From Spirosoma linguale DSM 74 (GTDB lineage Bacteria; Bacteroidota; Bacteroidia; Cytophagales; Spirosomataceae): DNA of 64,000 nucleotides. A program made the translations under genes and the position numbers. Location of the stretch: NCBI GenBank assembly GCA_000024525.1, contig CP001769.1, positions 496,001 through 560,000 of the forward strand, read 5' to 3'. Every line of letters begins with the position of its first letter. Position 1 is the stretch's first letter. Below, one piece after another: positions 2 through 2,363 of the stretch. The notes beneath the pieces are model-generated. The model was not told the origin of the DNA, searched no databases, and saw nothing but the letters and a program-made list of their open reading frames with translations.

Positions 2-679
2 ACGCTCTTGCTGACGCCCGATTCTACGACTGGTTTGGTTAAAACGGATTTGCCCGGCAAGGGCGTTTACCAATTGACCAGTTCAGCCAATGGCTATGGC
101 GATTTTACAAAGTCCATTAGGCTGGATAGTGTACAGAGCGAGGCACGGGTTATGCTGACGCCTAAAAAAGCGCCGGACATCACAAAAACACAAGCGCTCC
201 CCGAAGCCGTAGTAAAATCGGCAAAGACAGCCTATGTGGAGACTCCGACGGCAAAACCAGCAATAAAAGTGCCTGTTCTTTCCAGCAATCTACCGATGCC
301 TGCTGTTACGAATAAGCCGTTTGGCCCTCTCGAAAAAGGGAAAGCCATCCCGCTCAGGAACATCTACTTCGACCAGAGTTCTCCGGTTTTGCGGCCGGAG
401 TCTTCCACGGAGCTCGACCAATTGGCGGCTGTATTACTGGAAAGCCCAACGACAAAAATCGAAATCCGTGGACATACCGATAACCAGGGCGATTTTGACT
501 CAAATGTAAAACTCTCCCGCGACCGCTGTCAGGCGGTTATTGACTACCTCGCCAGTAAAGGAATCGCCAAAAATCGTCTGAAAGCCGTCGGTCGTGGTCC
601 CATCGACCCTGTTGCCCCGAATAACAATGAGGAAAACCGGAAGAAGAACCGGCGGGTGGAGGTAGTGCCTGTTCTCTGA
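2..679 (+). CDS. OmpA-family outer membrane protein, C-terminal part (gene starts before the window)
   Basis: The open frame runs in from the left edge, so the N-terminus is missing; the apparent TTG start at 8 is only an internal codon. The last ~110 residues form an OmpA-like peptidoglycan-binding domain: IYFDQSSPVLRPES opens the domain, and GHTDNQGDFDSNVKLSRDR and NRRVEVVPVL are the usual core and end. The visible N-terminal stretch is Lys/Pro/Ala-rich and linker-like. Such proteins tether the outer membrane to the cell wall. The stop codon TGA (677-679) lies inside the arm of the inverted repeat at 674-990, so the end of the gene is repeat-derived or repeat-invaded. Confidence 0.88.
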   Translation, partial: TLLLTPDSTTGLVKTDLPGKGVYQLTSSANGYGDFTKSIRLDSVQSEARVMLTPKKAPDITKTQALPEAVVKSAKTAYVETPTAKPAIKVPVLSSNLPMPAVTNKPFGPLEKGKAIPLRNIYFDQSSPVLRPESSTELDQLAAVLLESPTTKIEIRGHTDNQGDFDSNVKLSRDRCQAVIDYLASKGIAKNRLKAVGRGPIDPVAPNNNEENRKKNRRVEVVPVL

Positions 680-990
680 ACCGCCGGGCGGCCCCGCGGG
701 ATTTTAGCAAGATTTGACCAATTAAAACAAGATTGCTACCGCGCTGCCCCGGCAACTCTCCGCTTAACGTGTATTCATGGTCCTTTGGAGAAAATGATTG
801 TTGAGATTACTACCGCGCTGCTTTAACAACTCCCTCCTTAGCCTGTTTCATTACAGGCTGAAGGGGATTATGCTTTACCCACAAAAGATGACATCTTGTA
901 GAGATTTTCTGAGTTGAGTAGCGCGGCAGTAATCTTGTTTAATCCTTTGAATCTTGTTATAATCCCGCAGGGCCGCCCGGCGGTTCAGAG
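674..990. repeat. Composite inverted-repeat element between two convergent genes
   Basis: The outer arms are 674-703 and 961-990, inverted and identical at 29 of 30 positions, with core CCGCCGGGCGGCC. Similarity continues inward, more diverged, for about 50 bp (around 704-758 and 911-960). The inner part holds a word like GATTACTACCGCGCTGC at 731, at 804 and inverted near 916-932. A small hairpin (AGCCTGT/ACAGGCT) lies at 840-859. No protein is apparent in the interior. It resembles a MITE or REP-type element. Both flanking genes end inside the outer arms, in different frames. Confidence 0.75.
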
Positions 991-2363
991 CCCCTAAATG
1001 CGTCTTTTTTATCTACTGCGGCTAACTTGACCGGTTTGCCTTCCCGTGCCGACTGGTAAATAGCTTCCATTATTTTCTGGTCCTGTAAGCCTTCTTCACC
1101 GGGCGTAAAGGGGATTTTATTGTCCAGAATGCATTCTGAGAAGTGATCCATTTCGGTGGCGAAATGGTCCTTGTCGGCAATCTTATGCTGAATGATCTGG
1201 TTTTCGGTGCCCTGTGCCTGACTAGTTTCCAGTTGCAGGCCGGTGTATGGAAAAGCGGGGTCCATTTTTATCCAACCCGTATCTGCCAGAACGCGGTAGC
1301 TCTTCTCGTCGTGGTGACCGTAGCTGGTGGCGCAACTGGCCTGAACGCCACTTGGAAATTTCATCAGCCAGTTTACCTGTTCTTCTACTTCTTTGAAGCG
1401 TGGGTCGTTTGGCGTACTATGAATGTACGCCATAACTTCAGTTGGCTCTTCGGCCAGCACAAACCGGATAGTGTTCAGGCAGTATAAGCCCACGTCGGAG
1501 AGGGAGCCGCCCCCGGCGAGGGCTTTGTTGAACCGCCAGTGTTTCGGGTTGTCGGAGTTTTGGCCATTGTTCGCGATGATACTTTTCACCTTCCCGAATT
1601 TCTCTGTCTGGACCATCTCACGCACCATCCTGTTGTGTGGCTCATACTGAATCCGGTAGGCGATCATAAGCTTACGATTTGCCTTTTTGCAGGCGTCGAT
1701 CATAGCCTGGCACTCCTGGGCGCTATTCGCCATCGGTTTTTCGCAGAGAATATGCTTGCCCGCCTGCGCGCCCCGAATGGTGTATTCAGCGTGCATACCG
1801 TTGGGCAACACAATGTAAATGGCCTGCACCTCCTTGTTATCCTTCAGTTTGTCGTAGTCGGCGTAACTATAGCAACTCGATTCCTTGATGCCATACTGAG
1901 CGGCAACCTTCTGCATTTTTTCGGGGCTGCCGCTCACCAGAGCGACTACTTTCGATTTTGTACAGCTGCCAAAAGCGGGCAAAATCTGATTCAGGGTTAG
2001 GTGGCCGAGACCAACAAGGGCATAACCCACGCGCTGGTCTTCAGCCAGGGGCGTAGGGGTCGGGCCTTCCTGCTGTTCAGTTTTGGCTTTGATCTGCTCC
2101 AGTTCAATGGGCTTGGTGGAGTCGGCGGGGACTTCGGCCGGGGGCGAGGTAGCCGGGAGTTTGGGGACGGGTCCGCTGGGCGTACTAGCTGTAGATGCGG
2201 AAGTGCTGCTGGCGTCGGGTTTTTTGTCGCAGGAGGCCAGGGCGGTGCCCAGCGCACCAACGGCGAGGCTCCGGCCCGTTAGCTGAAGGAAATCCTGCCT
2301 GGAAAGGGTAGACAGGGCAGGGTTTCCCAATAGGTTAGTAACAAAACGATCAATCGGTTTCAT
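957..2363 (-). CDS. Gfo/Idh/MocA-family oxidoreductase, lipoprotein-type
   Basis: NAD(P)-dependent sugar oxidoreductase of the glucose-fructose oxidoreductase type, 468 aa. A hydrophobic segment ends in ALASC near residue 44, a lipobox suggesting membrane anchoring outside the cytoplasm. A Ser/Thr/Pro-rich linker follows, then the Rossmann start YALVGLGHLTLNQILPAFG (about residue 113) and the family signature EKPMANSAQE. The substrate cannot be read. Such periplasmic members often oxidise sugars in Bacteroidota glycan pathways. The last 11 residues (GSEPPGGPAGL) are encoded by the inverted-repeat arm and are probably not native to the family. Confidence 0.85.
   Translation of the reverse strand: MKPIDRFVTNLLGNPALSTLSRQDFLQLTGRSLAVGALGTALASCDKKPDASSTSASTASTPSGPVPKLPATSPPAEVPADSTKPIELEQIKAKTEQQEGPTPTPLAEDQRVGYALVGLGHLTLNQILPAFGSCTKSKVVALVSGSPEKMQKVAAQYGIKESSCYSYADYDKLKDNKEVQAIYIVLPNGMHAEYTIRGAQAGKHILCEKPMANSAQECQAMIDACKKANRKLMIAYRIQYEPHNRMVREMVQTEKFGKVKSIIANNGQNSDNPKHWRFNKALAGGGSLSDVGLYCLNTIRFVLAEEPTEVMAYIHSTPNDPRFKEVEEQVNWLMKFPSGVQASCATSYGHHDEKSYRVLADTGWIKMDPAFPYTGLQLETSQAQGTENQIIQHKIADKDHFATEMDHFSECILDNKIPFTPGEEGLQDQKIMEAIYQSAREGKPVKLAAVDKKDAFRGSEPPGGPAGL

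Follow-up and report, generated by a model that had tools for sequence, protein, structure and literature searches.

A long inverted repeat between convergent genes of Spirosoma linguale as a probable copy of a REPIN-like family of gene-end hairpins

The junction between an OmpA-family gene and a convergent oxidoreductase gene near the start of the window (the whole 64,000-nucleotide stretch of Spirosoma linguale DSM 74 analyzed here) is filled by a long inverted repeat, which we favor reading as a composite member of a REPIN-like, long-hairpin family found in Spirosoma. Copies of this family lie at gene 3' ends, mostly against the stop codon, between both convergent and co-directional genes, and the same junctions are occupied across species. 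The account that we prefer as a whole, with some reservation, is that of a family of 3'-end hairpins with conserved ends, TC[TA]GAACCGGGATTT, and GATT-word arms, which are re-matched and rewritten genome by genome and probably play a role at the 3' ends of transcripts. The features of the junction are as follows (genomes and loci are cited by our own G and L labels):

675..989, no strand: whole element, TCTGA to TCAGA, filling the convergent junction (ends from 59 congener copies, 118 edges in six genomes; repeat and fold)
675..745, plus strand: left arm, with the end TCTGAACCG, a GC module and the GATT-word arm (inverted-repeat search, comparison of copies)
920..989, minus strand: right arm, the left arm inverted (inverted-repeat search, comparison of copies)
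684..697, plus strand: GC module of the left arm, limits approximate (optional between ACCG and GGGATT elsewhere)
967..980, minus strand: GC module of the right arm, limits approximate (comparison of copies)
804..846, plus strand: additional direct copy, within the loop, of the inner arm word at 730-772 (74% identity)
2..679, plus strand: OmpA-family gene, its 5' part beyond the window (Pfam PF00691)
957..2363, minus strand: Gfo/Idh/MocA-family oxidoreductase gene (Pfam PF01408, PF22725, PF02894)
677..679, plus strand: TGA stop of the OmpA-type gene, within the element's TCTGA end (same stop position in element-free congeners)
957..980, minus strand: PGGPAGL codons and oxidoreductase stop, lying in the right arm (translation, congener C-termini)
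981..989, minus strand: codons S-E-P, which may belong to the gene or be the TCTGAACCG end of the element (indistinguishable; comparison with G046)

An inverted-repeat search of the window found outer arms at 674-726 and 938-990 (53 nt, 85% complementary) that continue inward at 725-745 and 920-940 (21 nt, 90% complementary), and the fold of 664-1000, at -158 kcal/mol (z = -13.3), was equaled by none of 100 shuffled sequences. The inverted repeat described in the original prediction is therefore real, as are the related inner words that it reported: 730-772 and 804-846 are direct copies of each other (74%), and an inverted copy lies near 916-940. A chance palindrome is rejected by the comparison with shuffles, together with the half-site counts given below. 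Rfam yielded no matches at the gathering score across 18 loci and, for positions 500-1200 of the window, a single sub-threshold match outside the element. Intrinsic terminators consist of a stem and then a run of U; the terminator scan found no T-run behind the outer stem of the focal element, and the one terminator-like site, at 756-735 on the minus strand, is at the level of shuffled sequence (shuffle mean 0.6).

Other copies in the genome, expected from the original prediction, are plentiful. BLAST of 674-990 against the S. linguale genome (8,491,258 bases in 9 contigs) returned 61 matches, grouped manually into about 27 places, and the half-site GGGATTTTANCAAGATTNAAAGGATT (24 positions, at most 3 mismatches) occurred 27 times per strand, that is, 54 times, compared with 0 for the reversed-pattern control. 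By eye, the arms in this genome are made up of (TCTGA)ACCG, an optional GC module and GGGATTTTAACAAGATTTAAAGGATTAAACAAGATT, and the loops are unrelated between copies. The family ends, TC[TA]GAACCGGGATTT and its reverse complement, were derived by comparing 59 copies from six congeners, which provide 118 edges. The strict pair ACCGGGATTT...AAATCCCGGT occurred 121 times, in 20 of 36 congeners (control, 1 match), and the end TCNGAACCGGGATTT was found in 26 of the 36, with up to 78 copies (G005; control, 1 match). Outside the genus, four of the 186 other genomes in the taxonomic family had strict pairs: of the three inspected by eye, G164 looks real and G114 and G122 do not, the fourth being G235 with two matches. 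Across the phylum, the 14-base end was present in 35 of 395 genomes, mostly once (control, 2 genomes). Thus, the repeat family is concentrated in the genus Spirosoma, with no clear family outside it. We found no account of this hairpin family in the open-access literature searched.

The GC module (ACCGCMCGGGCGGCCCCG) was found in 28 of 36 congeners (25 in G042, 16 in G040 and 15 in the S. linguale genome; control, 0). It sits on one or both arms, is present at the purH junction of G046 and absent from that of S. linguale, and also occurs inside a hairpin in the 5' flank of a Y1 gene (L260); it behaves like a separate insertable unit. Another repeat, CGGGGCCGCCCGGCGG with its own inverted copy, was noticed in the S. 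linguale genome (G000), on its contig C1, at ~5661130-5661230 and ~5608990-5609070, and at ~6658214-6658400 a tRNA-like stretch is adjoined by a partial copy with a GC-rich insert matching the outer arm of the element (by eye).

Placement was read from 81 paired copies in seven genomes, with genes called by our own ORF rules rather than taken from an annotation. Six congeners contributed 59 copies of 77 strict matches (one off-target locus, L187, was left out, and the focal-junction copies of G039 and G042, L093 and L094, were read separately), and S. linguale contributed 22, excluding the spurious half-site at 646592 and 12 unpaired half-sites. None of the 81 lies between divergent genes: the congener copies divide into 27 convergent and 32 co-directional, and those of S. 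linguale into 9 and 13. As a comparison rate, 10 of the 53 junctions in the window are divergent; among the 12 unpaired half-sites, one (114795) lies between divergent ORFs. Most facing stops in the six congeners, 69 of 86, are at -1 to +9 nt from ACCGGG (7 are inside the arm and 10 farther away), whereas uniform placement in the facing spacers of the window would put 9.1% of stops in that interval. The distances peak at 0 and 5, because the true end is TC[TA]GA, and the stop either stands just before it (TAA directly followed by TCTGAACCGGG) or is its TGA. In S. linguale, the 31 facing stops comprise 14 at -1 to +9, 8 within the arm and 9 at greater distances, some of these owing to the GC module. 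At 5806764-5806896 of contig C1 in this genome, an element lies between a gene stop and an ordinary T-run hairpin, which gives the impression of an insertion between the two (by eye).

This arrangement recalls the REPs. According to excerpts of PMC3733652, REPs occur between convergent and unidirectional ORFs, in convergent cases mostly less than 20 bp from the 3' ends, and form two super-families distinguished by the end tags GTAG and CGTC, the GTAG REPs often providing a TAG stop. Like REPs and REPINs (BIMEs) as described there, the Spirosoma elements are palindromic, multi-copy intergenic units, often arranged as inverted pairs that form a larger hairpin, located near the 3' ends of convergent or unidirectional genes, with termini that can supply a stop. 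Unlike them, the family ends in TC[TA]GAACC, with neither GTAG nor CGTC at one end, and has arms of about 40 nt or more, which are matched within copies and are not conserved at orthologous sites. It also differs in that no flanked RAYT was found. Searches for Y1_Tnp genes gave 7 matches in S. linguale and 38 in the six congeners, and no family end (at most 3 mismatches) stood beside a Y1 gene in the 37 loci scanned (7 of 7 and 30 of 38, respectively), so the reading as a REP flanking its cognate RAYT gene was rejected; the nearest were a pair about 1.1 kb away (L272) and a single 3-mismatch match inside the gene (L132). Excerpts of PMC6006769 describe, for RAYT subclass 2.6 of the Bacteroidetes, atypical flanking structures that are repeated elsewhere in the genome. 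The Spirosoma family belongs to the same phylum, and its structures likewise recur in the genome, but the inspected Spirosoma Y1 flanks bear other hairpins than this family. These Y1_Tnp genes (L131, L132, L260, L269, L272, L273) carry palindromic flanks of their own, as in subclass 2.6.

For 36 congeners, we searched two junctions and read 30 loci at each. At the oxidoreductase/OmpA junction, the OmpA neighbor is present in 19 of the 30 loci, and an inverted repeat above the shuffled level was detected in 12 of these 19. Full elements occur in G014, G039, G042 and S. linguale, and other hairpins in G046 (a palindrome of 21 nt), G041 (another palindrome, of 53 nt) and G012 and G018 (small hairpins). 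In G004, G045 and G021, 1 nt separates the two stops, and in G010 and G007, 11 nt. At the purH/plsC junction, the inverted-repeat score reached at least 18 in 22 of 30 congeners and fold z was below -4 over the first 110 nt in 22 of 30, giving a hairpin by either measure in 25 of 30; the score was used alongside the 110-nt fold test, which misses longer hairpins (G000, G024, G045). Scripted sorting assigned 11 of the 30 purH junctions to a CCGGGATT type and 4 to a GTCATGC type, with 15 other or none; the junction is near-empty in G003 (TAATG overlap), and G009 has a 20-nt spacer. In G042, G039 and G014, the purH stop is adjoined by a distinct long hairpin that begins with GT[CT]ATGCTGA and looks like another repeat family. 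Hairpins are not obligatory, a clear one being missing from 7 of 19 oxidoreductase/OmpA and 5 of 30 purH junctions.

Comparison of the flanks of the 81 copies identified 37 orthologous junction pairs between genomes, 34 of them supported on both flanks, and gave 56 of the 81 copies an orthologous partner; about 0.5 shared pairs would be expected at random, assuming 5000 junctions per genome and independent placement. The arms follow a different pattern. Measured at inner positions only, because the strict search pattern dictates the outer 10 nt on both sides, mean arm identity was 0.835 within a copy and 0.732 to other copies of the same genome; between genomes, it was 0.605 at orthologous sites and 0.604 for unrelated copies. 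Arm sequence thus tracks copy and genome rather than the junction occupied. Within-copy matching exceeded the family level in G039, G005 and G021 (0 of 10000 permutations each) and in G042 (1 of 10000), was weak in G041 (850 of 10000), and was not observed in S. linguale (1772 of 10000); G024, with two copies only, has too few for this comparison. Arm differences in the 45 co-directional copies were not skewed toward G-U on the transcribed strand (65 vs 55, p 0.41; local alignment), and the same comparison in the 36 convergent copies gave 36 vs 42. RNA-level selection, expected to appear as such a bias, is therefore not supported, and the arm data fit DNA-level template switching, as described in an excerpt of PMC8794818, better than stepwise RNA selection.

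The main rival to a functional reading is an insertion hot spot, whereby a mover repeatedly places several hairpin families behind the stops of the same junctions, any 3'-end function being incidental. We consider this account less probable. It would explain why different hairpin types share the same place at purH, why orthologous arms keep no likeness, and why some congeners have near-empty junctions, with stops 1 nt apart or the TAATG of G003. Conversely, S. linguale and G046, the closest pair, still share recognizably related elements at two junctions, and copies are therefore inherited over short times; moreover, no mover was found next to copies, either at the Y1 loci or within intervals between widely spaced arms. 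We read the hairpin as functional mainly because different hairpins occupy the same place, and we infer a 3'-end function for the family.

The original prediction had proposed a MITE- or REP-like family, and its multi-copy nature and REP-like placement held up, whereas the evidence falls short of a classical MITE. An element of this kind, moved by a transposase in trans and inserted between the two genes, appears improbable, although the terminal inverted repeats, the many copies and the common ends would suit it, as would loops that are partly alike in G039 and G005 (by eye). No target duplication was recognized on non-systematic inspection of the listed edges, and loops in S. linguale differ between copies (by eye). 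Furthermore, both stops abut the element in many convergent copies, a position not to be expected from insertion into an ordinary spacer. Two intervals between widely spaced arm pairs in S. linguale hold ordinary genes, as judged from translations, and neither showed an autonomous transposon. That ordinary gene-end terminators have come to look alike by convergence, with no repeat family involved, is very improbable: small ordinary hairpins do occur at the oxidoreductase/OmpA junction of G012 and G018, but the focal element has no T-run, and convergence cannot give a 24-position word common to 54 half-sites against none in the control, which rejects this reading as to family membership.

As originally described, the left arm contains the TGA of the OmpA-type gene (677-679), and the frame of the oxidoreductase crosses the right arm to a TAA at 957-959. 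The OmpA-type protein has not, however, gained a new end from the element as had been claimed, for it ends in the same Leu-TGA at the same place in the element-free congeners G004, G045 and G021. The proposed 11-residue tail of the oxidoreductase is unique among the congeners read, but its GSEP aligns with the usual C-terminus (...DAFRG[PSEA]EP.. in most), leaving only PGGPAGL without a counterpart and a net gain of 5 residues over the ...DAFRGPKPTV end of the closest relative. None of the 29 other congeneric C-termini read contains PGGPAGL, and the tail is likewise missing from all 22 C-termini that could be read among 77 loci in a scan of named genomes, whose species overlap with those of the 29. 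G046, 96% identical, reads GGA CCGAAGCCAACTG TCTAAACCGCC where the window reads GGC TCTGAACCGCC, with 13 nt fewer and no in-frame stop; the shortfall falls before the ACCG of the element, and the stop is thereby gone. G014, G039 and G042 carry a full element at this junction yet keep an ordinary oxidoreductase C-terminus and stop, so the idea that insertion rewrote the C-terminus gives way to a border deletion. As TCTGAACCG fits both the terminus of the element and the S-E-P codons of the gene, the breakpoint has no unique position. PGGPAGL is best explained by a 13-nt deletion that removed the stop where gene and element meet, and it would then be a by-product rather than a result of the insertion itself. 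Arm-encoded tails recur: in the six congeners the arm holds 7 of the 86 facing stops, in S. linguale 8 of 31, with protein ends such as ...SEPGF, ...NRDFNKI and, through the GC module, ...TGGPAGF (each followed by the stop). At the unpaired half-site 7941133, an aminotransferase-like ORF (by eye) also ends through the GC module. Like the Rickettsia palindromic elements mentioned in excerpts of PMC3733652, these are palindromic repeats that add residues to proteins; unlike those, they give only short C-terminal tails at the border.

In the preferred account of a REPIN-like gene-end hairpin family, the elements would be the transcribed hairpin at the 3' end of one neighbor or of both, serving as a transcript boundary or a 3' shield. 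Ribosome stalling has been reported for E. coli REPs located within 15 nt of a stop codon (excerpt of PMC12306157); the Spirosoma hairpin similarly stands directly behind the stop and may perhaps also slow the termination of translation. Arms may be re-matched via replication template switching and overwritten through exchange with other copies of the same genome. A bolder version, which we offer only tentatively, is that each Spirosoma genome keeps a set of hairpin-furnished stop-codon junctions rewritten in its own sequence dialect, with site and pairing persisting while the sequence is erased between species, by way of a copying process that recognizes stop-codon junctions.

Bacterial gene 3' ends are poorly annotated, and the present junctions can be compared across about 30 related species, some filled, some empty and some holding a replacement. 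Such junctions make it possible to test selection for pairing against template switching and against delivery of gene-end hairpins by mobile elements, and they show that gene-end elements add short tails to proteins.
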